Shown: positions 7,177 through 18,309 of the stretch, piece by piece
Position numbering within the stretch: the stretch's first letter is position 1
Layout of the letters: each line of letters begins with the position of its first letter
Assembly: GCF_000421105.1 (NCBI RefSeq)
Contig: NZ_ATWF01000002.1
Location: 310,001 to 374,000 of the forward strand
DNA from: Limisalsivibrio acetivorans
GTDB taxonomy: Bacteria; Chrysiogenota; Deferribacteres; Deferribacterales; Geovibrionaceae
DNA: 64,000 bases
Direction of reading: 5' to 3'
Translations under genes and position numbers: made by a program
The notes under the pieces: generated by a model
Databases searched by the model: none
What the model saw: the letters and a program-made list of their open reading frames with translations, nothing else
Told to the model about the DNA's origin: nothing

Positions 7177-7364
7177 TGAACCGCTCCAGACCAACCCACC
7201 AGGGTAACTGCCACAAACATACATTGCGCCAGCTGTTTAACCCTTTAGCATGCACTGAACCGTTCCAGACCAACCCGCCAGGGTAACTCCCACAAACATA
7301 AACTGAGCCAGCTGTTTAACCCTTTAGCAGACCTGAACCGCACCAGGCCACCCGCCGGGGTTTA
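7177..7364. repeat. 79-bp tandem repeat, 2.4 copies, abutting the CheW-CheZ gene
   Basis: Units begin with TGAACCG at 7177, 7256 and 7334. The first two copies (79 and 78 bp) differ at few positions and share CCAGGGTAACT, CCACAAACATA and CAGCTGTTTAACCCTTTAGCA. The third is cut off after about 30 bases, where the stop codon of the chemotaxis gene lies. The units contain no T-run terminator on either strand. Their role is unknown; they could be a 3' UTR structure of the gene read from the right or a recombination by-product. Confidence 0.85.
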
Positions 7365-9533
7365 GCCTAGACCGAAGTCCATGAGCAGCTTATCAATATC
7401 ATCCTGAGATGTGTCATCACTCAATTCCGCATTTCCAGATTGAGCCTTGATAAGACCAAGTATTGCTCCGATCCTGGCGCCGATATCCTCCACAGAATTG
7501 ATAACCTTGCGGAGCTTTTGCTCTGTGATATCCTGAAACTCGAGGGAGTGAAGTATTCCAAAGCCAAGATCCTCGGCAAGACCTATCTGACTCTCCATAT
7601 AATCGAGCTTCTTTTTAACTGATGTTATATCCTTCTTATAGACAAGATCTTCAAAATCATCCACATCGCCAATAAACTCTGCATAGAAACTGGACATCTT
7701 ATCGGCGGCCTCCATGAGGTTCATGGTTGCCTCTTCGGTGGTCTCGTTTACCTTTTCTAGTGATTCCACAACGACCGGCATGCTTTCCTTTGAGACCATA
7801 ATGGTGGGATCCACTTCGTCCACACGCTCTTTAGTGTCCATTATCAATCGCACAAGTTCGCCCAGCTCACCTTTTATATCAACACCAAGGTCAACGGCAT
7901 CCCCGTTTATTATCTTTTGGGTAAGATCACGCAAGTCATCTATGGAGTCGGTTTCAACGAAGAAGCCGTTTTGGTCTTTCTTTTCTTCTTCGGGAGTATC
8001 CTCAAAGGCGGCCTCGGCGGCCTCCTCCTCTGCAATATCTTCCGCAGATTCAGGTTCAGATTCGGAATCACCATTCTCGATTTCATCAAGAAGAACACCT
8101 AGATCATCGTCCATGACAGCGTCCGTATCTATACCGCCTGAATCATCAGTCCCTTCATCAAGTCCGATCTCTTCGGCCATCTCGGCCTCGGCTCTGGCCT
8201 CTTCCTCGTCTATTAACTGCTGTTTGGTTTTTTCTTCATCGGATGTGTCTTCTTCAAAGGTGGAGGTATCGGGCTCATCTTCCAACTGAGCGGCCATCTC
8301 GGCCTCGGCTCTGGCCTCTTCCTCGTCTATTAACTGCTGTTTGGTTTTTTCTTCGTCGGATGTGTCTTCTTCAAAGGTGGAGGTATCGGAATCATCTTCC
8401 AACTGAGCGGCCATCTCGGCCTCGGCTCTGGCCTCTTCCTCTTCAATCTTCTGCTGTTTTTCCTTGCCGGAAACGGTACAATAATCAGGTTGAATGACGG
8501 CATCGTCAAGGTCAGATTCGTCTTCAGTGGGCTCTTCCTGTTCAGCTTCCCCTAATTCTTCATTTTTTTTTTCAGCCTTTTTACGCTCGAGCATCTCTTC
8601 GGTTTCCTTTTCCCTCTTTTCAAGCTCTTTGGCTATGAGAGCGTCAAGGTCATCCTGCTCTACGTAATTGGCTTCATCACCGTTTCCAATCGTTTGGCTG
8701 AGTGCGTCTTCGAGAACTGCGTTCACCTCGTCGTCCGCATCTCCCTCAGCCTGATGAGATGCGGGCTCATCCTTTTTTCGTTCAAGCATCTCCTCGGTTT
8801 CTTTTTCCCGCTTTGCAAGCTCCTGGGCTATGAGGGCATCGATATCATCACCAACACCGTCATCAGCTCCCCCACTATCGGGCTCGGGTTCAGAAGAGGG
8901 TTCCGGTTCCGGCTCTTCTATGGCCTTTGGCTCATCCTCTTGAGGTGCTTCGCTTTCAACGCTCTTAGCAACCTCCTCATAGTTTACCTTAGGCTTTTCT
9001 TCAAGGGCGGGCTGGGAGAAGAATCTTCTTCTGAGGTCGCTGTCGACTGTTTTACCGTCGGCGATAACACTATCGATATCCAGAAGAATTATGAGTCGTT
9101 CCTCATATTTGCAGATTCCAAGGATATATTCCTGACCGATGGAGCCCACAAGGGGGGGCGTAGGCTCTACCATGCTTTTGTTGATTCTGATTACTTCGGT
9201 AACTTCGTCTACCACAAAACCGATGTTTTCGCTTTCGAAGCGGACAACGATGATCCTCGTTTCCTTGTCGAAATCCATTTTGTCGAGGGCAAAACGTACA
9301 CGGAGGTCGATAACGGGGATAACCTTGCCTCTCAGGTTCATAACACCGAGAACAAAGGAGTCTGTTCGGGGAACAGCTGTTATCTCCACAGGCCTGATGA
9401 TCTCCTGAATCTTGAGAACATCGATTGCATATTCCTCTTCGCCGAGCTTAAGCCCGACTAGCTGTATAATCTCTCCTTCGTCTATGGAGTCATCATAGTC
9501 AAGAGAAGGGTTAACAGGCTGCATATTGTCCAT
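7362..9533 (-). CDS. CheW-CheZ fusion protein with long acidic repeat linker
   Basis: A 723-residue chemotaxis protein. Residues about 20-165 are a CheW coupling domain (VGLKLGEEEYAIDV, GVMNLRGKVIPVIDLR). Residues about 185-530 are a highly acidic, low-complexity linker with two 26-residue units (DALIA.EL.KREKETEEMLERKK) and nearly three 39-residue units (IDEEEARAEAEMAAQLED and following). Residues about 540-723 resemble the CheZ phosphatase: long helices, the catalytic motif FQDITEQ (Asp668, Gln672; compare FQDLTGQ in E. coli CheZ) and a C-terminal SQDDIDKLLMDFG tail like the CheY-binding peptide of CheZ. It would place CheY-P phosphatase activity at receptor arrays. Start ATG has AAGGGGTG upstream. 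It follows the FlhG-like gene by 10 bases. Confidence 0.88.
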   Translation of the reverse strand: MDNMQPVNPSLDYDDSIDEGEIIQLVGLKLGEEEYAIDVLKIQEIIRPVEITAVPRTDSFVLGVMNLRGKVIPVIDLRVRFALDKMDFDKETRIIVVRFESENIGFVVDEVTEVIRINKSMVEPTPPLVGSIGQEYILGICKYEERLIILLDIDSVIADGKTVDSDLRRRFFSQPALEEKPKVNYEEVAKSVESEAPQEDEPKAIEEPEPEPSSEPEPDSGGADDGVGDDIDALIAQELAKREKETEEMLERKKDEPASHQAEGDADDEVNAVLEDALSQTIGNGDEANYVEQDDLDALIAKELEKREKETEEMLERKKAEKKNEELGEAEQEEPTEDESDLDDAVIQPDYCTVSGKEKQQKIEEEEARAEAEMAAQLEDDSDTSTFEEDTSDEEKTKQQLIDEEEARAEAEMAAQLEDEPDTSTFEEDTSDEEKTKQQLIDEEEARAEAEMAEEIGLDEGTDDSGGIDTDAVMDDDLGVLLDEIENGDSESEPESAEDIAEEEAAEAAFEDTPEEEKKDQNGFFVETDSIDDLRDLTQKIINGDAVDLGVDIKGELGELVRLIMDTKERVDEVDPTIMVSKESMPVVVESLEKVNETTEEATMNLMEAADKMSSFYAEFIGDVDDFEDLVYKKDITSVKKKLDYMESQIGLAEDLGFGILHSLEFQDITEQKLRKVINSVEDIGARIGAILGLIKAQSGNAELSDDTSQDDIDKLLMDFGLG
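8175..8480 (-). repeat. 117-bp in-frame tandem repeats inside the CheW-CheZ gene
   Basis: Copies starting with GGCCATCTCGGCCTCGGCTC on the plus strand occur at 8175, 8292 and 8409, a period of 117 bases or 39 codons. The first copies are almost identical over long stretches, including synonymous positions, so expansion is recent or kept uniform by recombination. Loss or gain of a unit would stay in frame and change only linker length. Confidence 0.88.
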
Positions 9534-9543
9534 CGAACACCCC

Positions 9544-10428
9544 TTAAAGTTTTGCCAGTAGTTGTTTTCTCAGGTCATCAATACAAAGGCAGACATCTCT
9601 GCTCAAGTTGTTTATATAAAAAGGCTTTAGCTTTTTAACACTCTCACTCACCCTAATATCATAGGGTATGAAGCCTAATTTTTCAATATCTATGCTGAGA
9701 TATTTCTTAGCAACATTCTCGAAACCGTAAAAGACATTAAGCTCTTTTTTCGTTTTCAGCATATTAAGAACAATACCTACTTTGTAGGATACAGCTATCT
9801 CTTCAACCTTAGGAATAAGCTTAACATCGATGGAGCGCATGGAATCCTTAATCGATGAAACGCTTGGATAATTCATACTCTTGCTTCTCAGTTTCTTGCA
9901 GATGTCCGCGAACCTGTAATCCTTACGGAGCAGCTGCTCAATCTTTCTGTAAAGAGCCACCTTAAGGAAGCCATAGGAGTTTTCAAGGCTTGTTGGCTCG
10001 CTGTTCATGAGCATAACCTTTCTATCCGCAGAGTTGAAAAAGTCTATCATATTATAGCTTGTTCCCGCTCCAAGATCGAGGATAACATGATCGTAGTCAA
10101 GGGCTTTAAGCTTGTTCAATACCTTCAGCTTTTCGTAGTTTGTAATGTGCGCCATTCCGAGGATATCCCCGGAACCGCCGATGAAGTCCACCTGTGCTGG
10201 TGTGTTCTGTATAACCTTGTCAATAGGCGCTTTCTCCTTGAGAAAGTCATAAAGCCCCACGCCGGGCACACGTATCCCCACGAAGTCATGTAGGTTTGCT
10301 CCGCCCAGATCAGCATCAACCAGTAAAACTCTGCTTCCGGCTGAGGAGAGGGCCATGGCGATATTCGAAGAGAAAAAACTTTTCCCCACGCCCCCTTTGC
10401 CGCTTGCTACAGAAATAATCTCTGCCAT
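9544..10428 (-). CDS. FlhG/MinD-like P-loop ATPase
   Basis: A 294-residue SIMIBI-class ATPase of the MinD/FlhG group. The deviant Walker A is KGGVGKS near the N terminus, followed by VDADLGGANLHDF and ILDLGAG (switch II), and AEPTS-like MLMNSEPTSLENSYGFLK, a pattern of FlhG proteins that set flagellar number and position. I chose ATG 10428; a GTG three codons upstream is possible. It lies between a DUF2062 gene and the CheW-CheZ fusion, supporting a motility role. No flhF is in the window, so a role in placing chemoreceptor arrays is also possible. Confidence 0.83.
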   Translation of the reverse strand: MAEIISVASGKGGVGKSFFSSNIAMALSSAGSRVLLVDADLGGANLHDFVGIRVPGVGLYDFLKEKAPIDKVIQNTPAQVDFIGGSGDILGMAHITNYEKLKVLNKLKALDYDHVILDLGAGTSYNMIDFFNSADRKVMLMNSEPTSLENSYGFLKVALYRKIEQLLRKDYRFADICKKLRSKSMNYPSVSSIKDSMRSIDVKLIPKVEEIAVSYKVGIVLNMLKTKKELNVFYGFENVAKKYLSIDIEKLGFIPYDIRVSESVKKLKPFYINNLSRDVCLCIDDLRKQLLAKL

Positions 10429-10461
10429 AACACCCACTTAAATGAAAAGAGAGTTGAGGCC

Positions 10462-10899
10462 TTAATATGCCTCACGATACTTTTTCACTATATAGTATAT
10501 CAATAAATATGTAAAGATGCCAACAAGAAAGCCGAGCAGATGCGTACCCACCATAAATGGGGGGAGAAAGGCCTTTGCTGTGGTGAACAGATCGGTCAGG
10601 GAGAGGTTGCCAATGTCGATATTCAAATCTGCACCGTCCACGAAAAGCTTGCCGAACTTATAGCATGCAGCGTATATGAAAACCATTGTGAGAGGGTTAG
10701 TTATGTATGCCCCGAGCAGAAGAGGATACAGGGGAAGACTGAACACAAAGGAAGCCCCGATGGCAAGTGCTGTGTGCAGACCGAGATACGGCGAGAATCC
10801 GATGAATATACCAACGGCAGATGCCGCTGCAATCCTTGACGGGGAGCAGTCCAGCTGGATAAGTCTTCGGATTTTCGCTCTTAGGGCTTCGATAAACAT
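10462..10899 (-). CDS. DUF2062 small membrane protein
   Basis: A 145-residue protein of the DUF2062 family, seen from IFIGFSPYLGLHTALAIG and the ITNPLTMVFIYAACYKFGK block. Three hydrophobic stretches (about 27-60, 63-82 and 110-138) predict an inner-membrane protein. Family function is not established; it often occurs next to envelope or chemotaxis genes. It is the first gene of a three-gene run with the FlhG-like and CheW-CheZ genes, separated by 24 bases. Confidence 0.8.
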   Translation of the reverse strand: MFIEALRAKIRRLIQLDCSPSRIAAASAVGIFIGFSPYLGLHTALAIGASFVFSLPLYPLLLGAYITNPLTMVFIYAACYKFGKLFVDGADLNIDIGNLSLTDLFTTAKAFLPPFMVGTHLLGFLVGIFTYLLIYYIVKKYREAY

Positions 10900-15357: not shown

Positions 15358-16497
15358 TTAATCCTCCCCGTTGTGAAGACTTTCGTTAATCAAAGGTATG
15401 CCAAACCTCCTGCCAATCTCTTCAATATCCACAGGAACACCAAGTTTTATGGCATCGCTCACCACCTCCCATTCGGCGGAGCTTCCCCATTCGAAACTGA
15501 AAACAGGAACAGGAACACCTTTGCCGGCATTCAGCTCTGTAATCCATCTTATGAGTGTTGAGTTAAGTGTATCCGCAAGGGATACAGCAAGCTTCTCCGC
15601 CCTGGAGTGATATGTCTTTGAATGCTCCCTAGCTAGAGCCCATGAACCACCGGCTGAAGTGTCACTGGTAAGAATCTCTCCGGTAACCGCTTTTGATATT
15701 TCTGCATTGCAAAGATTGATCAGTTCGGAGAAATCAGCGGATGTCCCCCTGCTTTCAAGCACCTCAACCTTGTCCACATTTGCCATGGCGAGTGCCGCAT
15801 CGTTTTGTATGCCGCTTAAAGATTCCGCAAGGGATGCCGCCCTTCTTCTTGCATCCTCATCGTCTATGCTGTCAAAGAGTGCCAGAACAGTGGGGACACC
15901 GTACTTCTCCGCCGCAGTAAGCCAGAAGCGGAAACCCGCCTTCTTAAACATCCAAGGCCAGTAGCATTTTGAAAGGATGGGGGAACCGTAGGGGTTCTCC
16001 CCCCTTGGCGAATGCCTGTGGACTATCACCTTATACTCCTCATCAATAACACTGCTCCCGGAGGCTCCGTCCATGAGCAGACCGCCTTCGGAATTGAATC
16101 CAAAACGCTCCTGCTTCCTGCCGAGAAGCTTCTCCGGTAGCATCAGTCCCCCTTCCCTCTTCCAGACTATCTCGGTTACGGAGAAACCATACTCCACAGC
16201 GCTGAGGATCTCCTCAAGATCACCACGAAAACCGTTTATACCTTCAACGGCCCTTCGAACCATCTCCGCAGTGCGCACAGCATCGTTACCCTGATCCGCC
16301 GGGGCAATACTCCACCCCCCTGAAAGCACCCCCTCTTTGAGTTGCTCCACCTTCGCTGAGATATGAGCATCGTTCATCATCTGGGCAAAGGTCTCCATTC
16401 GGACACCCCCCGAAAGAACCGTATCCGGATTGGGCATATATCCGAGAACGCTTCCTATCCCTGCCGGTCCTGTAACTGCTGTTGTCAGCTTTTTCAT
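15358..16497 (-). CDS. Phage portal-like protein, DUF935 (Mu gp29) family
   Basis: A 379-residue protein like the DUF935 portal proteins of Mu-like phages, recognised by MNDAHISAKVEQLKEGVLSG, HRHSPRGENPYGSPILSKCY, WPWMFKKAGFRFWL and AAEKYGVPTVLALFD. Portals form the dodecameric ring through which DNA enters the head. It is somewhat shorter than the usual family length (about 450-520, from memory). It directly follows the large terminase (11 bases). No protease, capsid, tail or lysis gene follows, so it belongs to an incomplete packaging module. Confidence 0.82.
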   Translation of the reverse strand: MKKLTTAVTGPAGIGSVLGYMPNPDTVLSGGVRMETFAQMMNDAHISAKVEQLKEGVLSGGWSIAPADQGNDAVRTAEMVRRAVEGINGFRGDLEEILSAVEYGFSVTEIVWKREGGLMLPEKLLGRKQERFGFNSEGGLLMDGASGSSVIDEEYKVIVHRHSPRGENPYGSPILSKCYWPWMFKKAGFRFWLTAAEKYGVPTVLALFDSIDDEDARRRAASLAESLSGIQNDAALAMANVDKVEVLESRGTSADFSELINLCNAEISKAVTGEILTSDTSAGGSWALAREHSKTYHSRAEKLAVSLADTLNSTLIRWITELNAGKGVPVPVFSFEWGSSAEWEVVSDAIKLGVPVDIEEIGRRFGIPLINESLHNGED

Positions 16498-16508
16498 ACT
16501 ATCCCCCT

Positions 16509-17930
16509 TTAATATCCCTTCATTAACCCCGCAGAACTCCGCACCGCACCGGAGCTGAACCCTGCAGGGGCTTGTCTTTTCGCCATAAAGTTCAGAGCCT
16601 GGGTCATGGCATCCACCATGTCGTCATTCGCCCCGTCAGGAAAAGCCGCCGCCTCCTCCACAAGGCTCTGAACCCACTCCCCTTTCTCCGGTAGCCATAC
16701 GTTGCCCGCTTCCAGAAGTGGCTGCACCACATAAGCCCTGGAGGTTTTGCTTCCCAAAGGCTGAACGGGTATGAGACCCGAAATCTCCCTTCCTAATGCA
16801 CTGATAACGGCGGAGCCATTCGCCTTATCCTCAATATACTTGGCCTCCGCCTTAGGGTACTTCTCTGTCATCCTGCGTACAGCCCTGAGCGTCTCGGCGA
16901 AGTCCATCCTCGCCCTAACCATATCCACAAGGTAACGTGAGCTGCCGGAGGCGGCCCAGACCTGCCCAACCACATAGTCCGAACGCTCACCCCCCTTGAA
17001 GCTCATATCCCAGGACTGCGCAAAAAAATCGATCCTTGCCGGAAGAGTGCGATAGTACTGCCACCACTCCCTCCTGAAAACCGAACCTTCCTGGGGCGAG
17101 GGGGACTGCTGGTAAAGAGCATTCCACACCCTCTCTCCTACACTTTTGCGTATACGACCCAGATCCTCAGCTCCATACTTTTCCTTCCAAAGGGGCTCAC
17201 CCGCTTTTCTGTATTCCTCATCAACTTCGGCAACGGCTGGGAAGGAGACCACCCGCCACTCATCGTCCCCCGAGGAGAGAAGCCGCCCGGCAAGGTCGTC
17301 CTCATGCCACCTTGTCTGGATTAGTATTATCCTTCCCCCCTTCTCCAATCGAGTAAAAAGGGTGGATTGATACCACTCCCAGACCTTCTCCCTGTAAGCA
17401 GACGACTCTGCCTGCTCGCTGTTCTTAACAGGGTCATCAATGATTATAAGGTCTCCGCCAAGCCCTGTTATGGAACCGCCTACACCAGAGCTTACATAGG
17501 CTCCTCCCCCTTCGGTTTCCCATTTACCCGCCGAAGAGAACCCCCTCCTCGGATGGACACCTGGAAAAACAAGCCGGGAGCGGGATGAGTCCAGAACATC
17601 CCTCACCCGCCTGCTGAAATGCTCCGCAAGCTCGGCACTATACGAGCATGCAATAATCCTTGCCTCCGGCTTCCTCCCGAGAAACCATGCAGGGAAGCGG
17701 ACCGAGGCGAGCTCGCTTTTACCGTGTCTAGGGGGCATCATAACCATAAGCCTGTCCGTTTCACCCCGCTCCACCCTCTCCAGTTCTGTCGCCAGAACCT
17801 TATGGTGCCAGCTGGGCGCAAAGCGGGGGAAGCTGAGCATGGAATAGGCAGTAAGGCTGCTTCTTCCTTTGAGCAATGCCCTTATCTTAGGATCATTCTT
17901 CGTTATCAAGGATCCGCTCAACCTCATCAT
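16509..17930 (-). CDS. Phage terminase large subunit
   Basis: A 473-residue packaging motor. The N-terminal ATPase shows MPPRHGKSELAS (Walker A), LIIIDDPVKN (Walker B) and LIQTRWHEDDLAGRLL (coupling motif); the C-terminal RNase H-like nuclease shows FAQSWDMSF, with KYIEDKANG and the final FPDGANDDMVDAMTQAL motif carrying the metal-binding acids. Both domains look intact. It overlaps the small-subunit gene by 38 bases, a normal arrangement. Presence without head or tail genes is unusual. Confidence 0.92.
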   Translation of the reverse strand: MMRLSGSLITKNDPKIRALLKGRSSLTAYSMLSFPRFAPSWHHKVLATELERVERGETDRLMVMMPPRHGKSELASVRFPAWFLGRKPEARIIACSYSAELAEHFSRRVRDVLDSSRSRLVFPGVHPRRGFSSAGKWETEGGGAYVSSGVGGSITGLGGDLIIIDDPVKNSEQAESSAYREKVWEWYQSTLFTRLEKGGRIILIQTRWHEDDLAGRLLSSGDDEWRVVSFPAVAEVDEEYRKAGEPLWKEKYGAEDLGRIRKSVGERVWNALYQQSPSPQEGSVFRREWWQYYRTLPARIDFFAQSWDMSFKGGERSDYVVGQVWAASGSSRYLVDMVRARMDFAETLRAVRRMTEKYPKAEAKYIEDKANGSAVISALGREISGLIPVQPLGSKTSRAYVVQPLLEAGNVWLPEKGEWVQSLVEEAAAFPDGANDDMVDAMTQALNFMAKRQAPAGFSSGAVRSSAGLMKGY

Positions 17931-18309
17931 CCCCGATTAAGCCGAGGCCGTCGTAAAGGTCCTCTAAAGAGGTGCTTATGGAATCCTCCTTTACGATCTC
18001 CTCGGTTTTTGTAACCCCTATATCCCTGTAGTTTTTCACTGTTTTAGAGTGGATCTCCAGATCCTTCAGGTTTTCGCATTCATCAAGGAGCCAGTCCGCC
18101 TTTTCAAGCCCCTTAAGGGTGCTGTCGTGGATCGCATTCAGTATCTTTATGCGGTTCACCTTCACCCTCTCATTAGATCTCTGCCACCCCTCATCCGCTA
18201 TCCTCTTCTGGATAGTCCTCTCAGTACAGCAGTATTTTCGGGCGAGACCTCCGGTGCTTTCACCGCTAATCTCAAAATCAGCCCGCATCTTTTCCCAGTT
18301 GATAGCCAT
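17893..18309 (-). CDS. Probable phage terminase small subunit
   Basis: A 138-residue protein with an N-terminal DNA-recognition helix pair (FEISGESTGGLARKYCCTERTIQKRIADEGW) of the type found in small terminases, followed by a helical part and an acidic C terminus. The small subunit recognises the packaging site and loads the large subunit. The assignment rests on the HTH and the overlapping large terminase gene downstream. It is the first gene of the module; about 100 bases upstream no integrase, regulator or other phage gene is seen. Confidence 0.72.
   Translation of the reverse strand: MAINWEKMRADFEISGESTGGLARKYCCTERTIQKRIADEGWQRSNERVKVNRIKILNAIHDSTLKGLEKADWLLDECENLKDLEIHSKTVKNYRDIGVTKTEEIVKEDSISTSLEDLYDGLGLIGDDEVERILDNEE

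Follow-up and report, generated by a model that had tools for sequence, protein, structure and literature searches.

A single gene of Limisalsivibrio acetivorans joins a CheW adaptor domain to a CheZ-homologous domain through a long linker, and a run of ten adenines (A10) within that linker is the predicted site of programmed slippage, by which this one gene would supply both a short form, consisting of CheW and docking motifs, and a long CheW-CheZ form. We estimate the probability of this reading at roughly 0.78. The broader claim, that slippage at A10 (or a -1 shift at A_AAA_AAG) sets the ratio of docking adaptor to CheW-CheZ throughout the phylum and would represent the first recoding switch in chemotaxis, is also likely in our judgment, if somewhat less securely held. 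The gene occupies positions 7362..9533 of the window, by which we mean the whole stretch of 64,000 nucleotides that was analyzed, and its ATG-initiated open reading frame encodes a long form of 723 aa. The gene and all of its parts described below lie on the minus strand.

The initial annotation had proposed an N-terminal CheW domain in this reading frame, and profile searches recovered it at residues 24-159 (9057..9464; PF01584, E=2.8e-39). With a score of 134 bits against a cut-off of 23.5, it ranked at the top among the ten CheW domains of the genome, and by this measure it is a canonical CheW adaptor domain. A separate CheW-domain protein of 295 aa is encoded in the source genome, and its domain and length suggest that it is CheV. 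CheV consists of a CheW domain and a receiver, and the present protein resembles it in that the CheW domain carries a second signaling module into the array; the second module here, however, is CheZ rather than a receiver. Elsewhere, a 509-aa protein with three tandem CheW domains was observed in a second chemosensory cluster (L071:6527-8056; G000:C1:84526-86055), and two transposase-like ORFs of 321 aa each, identical in their first 50 residues, adjoin the chemotaxis clusters (L073:17641-18606, L074:3106-4071).

The C-terminal domain (about residues 530-723; 7365..7946) scored poorly in standard family searches. The hmmscan search against Pfam gave no CheZ match at E<=1 for the 723-aa protein, PF04344 assigned the window protein 16 bits in a single-genome search, below the Pfam cut-off, and the C-terminal domains of relatives matched PF04344 at E=3.8e-6 to 9e-4, under the curated cut-off. 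A profile built from 34 fused domains recovered E. coli CheZ (E=4.7e-8), whereas the best-scoring ORF other than CheZ reached 0.09, and an hhalign comparison with 31 standalone CheZ proteins from the phylum covered 196 of 210 columns (E=2.7e-26) and brought FQDIT-Q and the tail into line; because of these two results, a chance match can be excluded. The catalytic motif FQDITEQ (residues 666-672; 7518..7538) contains Asp668 and Gln672, which correspond to Asp143 and Gln147 of E. coli CheZ, and this D-x3-Q pair was retained in all 37 aligned fused relatives. The C-terminal CheY-binding-type tail SQDDIDKLLMDFG (7371..7409) aligns with the E. coli CheZ tail SQDQVDDLLDSLGF and is missing or altered in some relatives. 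Both the motif and the tail were found at the positions that had been claimed for them. The CheZ fold is a long helical hairpin that dimerizes into a four-helix bundle; AlphaFold models of the present domain and its core (8 sequences), both of low pLDDT (53 and 64), consisted of helices throughout, the chain turning at about domain residue 115; Foldseek comparison of these low-confidence models with the PDB returned unrelated helical bundles, and a phmmer search with the C-terminal domain found no CheZ among PDB sequences. Judged by its profile matches, catalytic residues, and conservation across the phylum, the C-terminal domain is a genuine CheZ homologue with predicted phosphatase activity, and the proposed fusion of CheW to a CheZ-like phosphatase is upheld to that extent. 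The fused domain aligns collinearly with CheZ of E. coli and with the standalone CheZ of the phylum, and it has in common with CheZ (PF04344) the D-x3-Q pair and the CheY-binding-type tail; it differs in being preceded by CheW and by a long linker that bears motifs. Since the CheZ part falls under the Pfam cut-off in the members scanned, it is probably unannotated, and the whole family is therefore likely annotated merely as CheW.

The linker (about residues 160-530) had been portrayed as a long acidic repeat acting as a flexible tether of about 350 residues. It is indeed acidic and repetitive, and it includes a 117-bp tandem array (8174..8459), equivalent to 2.4 copies of a 39-residue acidic repeat, which is present in the source genome and absent from the relatives listed. 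That portrayal nevertheless overlooked the conserved, docking-like motifs and the slippery A10 tract, and it is incomplete; in eight genomes the CheZ part lies outside the CheW frame and could be tethered solely via recoding. The conserved motif spans about 30 residues with the invariant positions [IL]-[DE]-x-L-I-x-x-E-L-x-x-R-E-x-E, and 68 copies were found in 36 sequences, most genomes having two, those of the distant class f10 three or four, and some a single one. In the window, copy 1 (residues 224-253, DDGVGDDIDALIAQELAKREKETEEMLERK; 8775..8864) is conserved in relatives, and copy 2 (residues 289-318, NYVEQDDLDALIAKELEKREKETEEMLERK; 8580..8669) has a core similar to the CheY-binding peptides of FliM and CheZ. 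This core, QDDLDALI, follows the pattern of the FliM N-terminus of the same genome (LSQEEIDALL) and of the CheZ tail (SQDDIDKLL). In 260,000 ORF residues, a sample enriched in chemotaxis loci and with some redundancy, the expression [QED][DENS][DE][ILV]D.L[IL] matched only FliM N-termini, CheZ proteins, and the linkers or tails of the CheW-CheZ family. FliM N-termini and CheZ tails bind CheY-P, and from this likeness we infer that the linker motifs are CheY-P docking sites. With its docking-like motifs and its apparently slippery tract, the linker is more than a plain tether. An N-terminal FliM-like CheY-binding peptide (MAGKADQSDIDALLAQF) was also noted, along with a similar tail, in a 313-aa CheZ-like protein of G002 (L078:7528-8469).

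Behind the last linker motif, the sequence of the window reads GCT GAA AAA AAA AAT GAA GAA TTA G, in which the A10 tract (8563..8572) covers codons 321-324 (GAA AAA AAA AAT) and constitutes the predicted slippage or frameshifting site. If the mRNA gains one A, or if the ribosome shifts by -1, the next codon is a TGA stop (8560..8562); if the mRNA loses one A, a TAG stop in the +1 frame is reached after three codons (8552..8554). A tract of A10-14 was present behind the last motif in all 36 Deferribacterales genes. The CheZ frame was continuous in 28 of them, with both other frames stopping within 0-5 codons apart from one exception at 14. In the other eight, it is the CheW frame that meets a stop, within 0-3 codons, and CheZ is encoded in a frame that passes straight through the tract, the frame change needed being -1 in most and +1 in two; these eight genomes represent four genera (a Denitrovibrio-type genus, two of f6, and one of f7). 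The tract is kept while the residues that it encodes vary (e.g., EKKN or NKKKKV). In most genera, chance alone would place joint stops this close at about 2-9% of linker positions, and the flanking-stop test combined over 11 genera gave a Fisher p of about 8e-6 without kinship correction, tracts and stops being in part common by descent. In the 2.97-Mb genome, A10 occurs five times, and in a sample of 301,147 bp drawn from 20 genomes, the CheW-CheZ gene accounts for 36,323 bp and holds every one of the 24 A/T runs of at least 10. A degenerate relative (G029) that has lost the CheZ catalytic motif has lost the tract too. These patterns of retention and loss indicate that the tract and its stops are under selection. 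A second A10 tract was observed behind linker motif 1 in L055, L054, L059, L060, L116, and L117, with A9 in L053; in five of these, stops in the other two frames follow within 1-4 codons of it, and in L059 and L060 within 4-11 codons. With stops so near this additional tract, a third, shorter product is therefore possible.

The same design was encountered in dnaX. The dnaX gene of the source genome carries A10 at codon 484, and its other two frames stop 1 and 3 codons on; A9 or A10 was present in nearly all dnaX genes examined across Deferribacterales (L134:49-1677, L137-L166, L176-L179). Thermus thermophilus dnaX has an A9/A10-type arrangement at which transcriptional slippage leads to tau and gamma (PMC5009743), and the present gene shares with it the A9/A10 tract and the presence of a stop in each of the other frames. 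In one genus of f7, both dnaX and the CheW-CheZ gene need a -1 change at A10 in three species, and dnaX continues beyond A10 in the -1 frame for 153 codons; cells with such an out-of-frame dnaX presumably recode at A10 to make tau. The distant class (f10) shows another arrangement, in which the linker ends with GGA AAA AAG, so that the heptamer A_AAA_AAG known from E. coli dnaX is present in the correct phase. The second -1 codon is a stop in 3/3 of the f10 genes, and a stem-loop lies 4-6 nt downstream in 3/3, although the stem-loop sequences differ; the 50-nt energies fell among the lowest 13% of windows in one gene and among the lowest 1.2% and 8.4% in the other two. The likeness to E. coli dnaX accordingly comprises the heptamer, the immediate -1 stop, and the stem-loop, and an Rfam search of the f10 genes returned no known frameshift element. 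In contrast to dnaX, the present gene belongs to chemotaxis, the part gained or lost is a phosphatase domain, and its two products are predicted. At A10, transcriptional slippage or ribosomal -1 shifting could be at work, and the sequence fits either.

The continuity of the CheZ frame across the tract in 28 of the 36 genes, the window included, would also fit a plain fusion, in which the 723-aa CheW-CheZ protein is the sole product, the linker is passive, and A10 is a by-product of lysine-rich coding. This account appears improbable considering that A10 is very rare elsewhere in the genome, that the tract persists while its encoded residues change and both other frames have near stops, and that eight genomes reach CheZ by recoding only. 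Phase variation at the DNA level, with tract length differing between cells and toggling the CheZ part, draws on the reputation of long homopolymers as classic contingency loci, on tract lengths of 10-14, and on the genes that are out of frame. However, in nearly all cases the tract measures exactly A10, whatever the family, the genus with A11-13 keeps the frame open every time, the out-of-frame status is uniform within genera (3/3, 3/3), and the same genera are alike at the A9/A10 of dnaX, a gene not cheaply switched off; we therefore consider phase variation quite improbable. The split genes could alternatively stem from faulty sequencing or assembly, or from genuine fission of the gene; homopolymers are error-prone, and several of the genomes are drafts. 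Yet the break falls at the same tract in eight genomes of four genera, one of which is a single contig of 3.2 Mb, and coding runs on directly through the tract in another frame, so that this explanation is hardly credible. Gene fission was rejected from the nucleotide sequence, in which the CheZ frame runs uninterrupted through the A tract.

A different alternative concerns the partner of the linker motif, which might bind a MinD-like ATPase in the manner of ParP/ParC array positioning instead of binding CheY. A MinD/ParA-family ATPase gene (9544..10437, minus strand) lies upstream, 10 bp from the CheW-CheZ start codon, and a MinD-like gene adjoins the CheW-CheZ gene in 23 of the 24 regions with room for it; moreover, ParC, an anchor at the pole, tethers the CheW-like array protein ParP (PMC5706961). 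Among the sampled proteins, on the other hand, the motif core matches CheY-binding peptides alone, which leaves ATPase binding in place of CheY binding a tentative and rather unlikely option, while the basic/acidic second half of the motif (ELAKREKETEEL) could have the ATPase as its partner. The polar ParP/ParC system of Vibrio is similar in that a ParA/MinD-family ATPase accompanies an array protein containing a CheW-like domain, but ParP has a C-terminal CheW-like domain and an N-terminal ParC-binding part, whereas CheW is N-terminal and CheZ is C-terminal here. The present protein was rejected as a ParP, given that its domain order differs and the ATPase neighbor is the sole shared feature.

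Under programmed slippage, our preferred reading, RNA polymerase would slip on A10 (or the ribosome on the same codons), and part of the product would meet the stop just behind it. The resulting short form of about 324-326 aa would contain the CheW domain and the two CheY-docking motifs, and the remainder would be read through into the 723-aa long form, adding the CheZ phosphatase domain. The CheW domain would bring both forms into the receptor/CheA array, where the FliM-like linker motifs would hold CheY-P near CheA; the CheY-P held there would be dephosphorylated by the CheZ domain that the long form carries. The level of recoding could then determine what fraction of the array adaptors bears the phosphatase, as dnaX sets gamma to tau, and the MinD-like neighbor may have a positioning role comparable to that of ParC toward ParP. 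If both forms are indeed produced, recoding would fix the stoichiometry of a signaling array, a role best known from the replicase gene dnaX. Should this hold true, synonymous changes that break the tract would lock the long form, and a one-base change would force the short form.

The C-terminal domain was matched in 47 of the 51 genomes of the phylum, mostly with CheW in the same frame of a long ORF. Two of the four genomes without a match also lack FliM and are probably not flagellated, and the other two are small (1.3 Mb) and have FliM. The closest relatives among public contigs were Denitrovibrio, Seleniivibrio, and Deferribacteraceae. A tblastn search against plasmids gave only CheW-part matches among the matches listed, with no listed record covering most of the query. 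Upstream of the ATPase gene, a gene for a DUF2062 membrane protein (10462..10899, minus strand) is usually conserved, often accompanied further upstream by lon and hsp20, and the conserved neighbors were also found in three f10 genomes; the neighborhood shared with f10 argues that the gene predates the split of the classes. In a tree of fused and standalone CheZ, the branches were long and did not separate one from two origins of the fusion, and a single origin is argued because neighbors and motifs are shared. The MinD-like neighbor was ruled out as the FlhG of this genome, since a distinct FlhG-like paralogue (C1:2339349), 32% identical to the MinD-like ATPase, adjoins flhF. That cluster reads flhF-flhG-fliA-cheB-fliM-fliN/Y-cheY-cheZ-cheA, with names taken partly from sequence reading.

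A standalone CheZ of about 210 aa is present in nearly every genome of the phylum. In f6 and f7, its active site has decayed (EFKEITKSK, EFKESSISK, etc.; L090, L104-L114, L121), with Asp lost in 14 of 15 genomes and Gln also lost in 11. The fused copy retains both Asp and Gln in nine of the genomes whose standalone CheZ has lost Asp and for which the fused sequence was read as well, and the fused CheZ is therefore the better conserved enzyme in f6 and f7. Retention of the gene for an Asp-less standalone CheZ suggests a non-catalytic, CheY-binding CheZ. The standalone CheZ of the source genome has intact catalytic residues, and the fusion is therefore not its sole predicted CheY-P phosphatase.

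The initial annotation knew of no description of CheW joined to CheZ, and our literature search agrees with this, as neither a CheW-CheZ fusion nor recoding in CheW or CheZ was found in open-licence full texts, and the GeneTack frame-transition paper mentions neither CheW nor CheZ. ChePep is a polar chemotaxis accessory protein of Campylobacterota that is linked to CheZ. To our knowledge, no CheW-CheZ fusion has been described in the ChePep/CheO systems of Campylobacterota. CheO is likewise a polar chemotaxis accessory protein linked to CheZ in that group (PMC9665402). The parts described here are of known kinds, and their combination, together with the recoding of a chemotaxis adaptor and phosphatase, appears to be new. 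The CheW-CheZ fusion adds to the known architecture of chemotaxis and would place signal termination within the array itself.

Several minor observations accompanied the analysis. In G001, the CheW-CheZ gene contains a match to the type I hammerhead ribozyme (L076:7695-7866, minus strand; E=0.001) that may be due to chance, its 30.6 bits lying below the gathering score of 34. At 15358-18309 of the window (minus strand), inspection by eye indicated phage portal- and terminase-like proteins, with HTH-type regulators nearby at 11-14 kb, and this region is a possible prophage remnant. Immediately 3' of the CheW-CheZ gene, a 79-bp tandem repeat of 2.4 copies (7177-7361) sits in a stretch of about 2 kb without ORFs of at least 90 aa.
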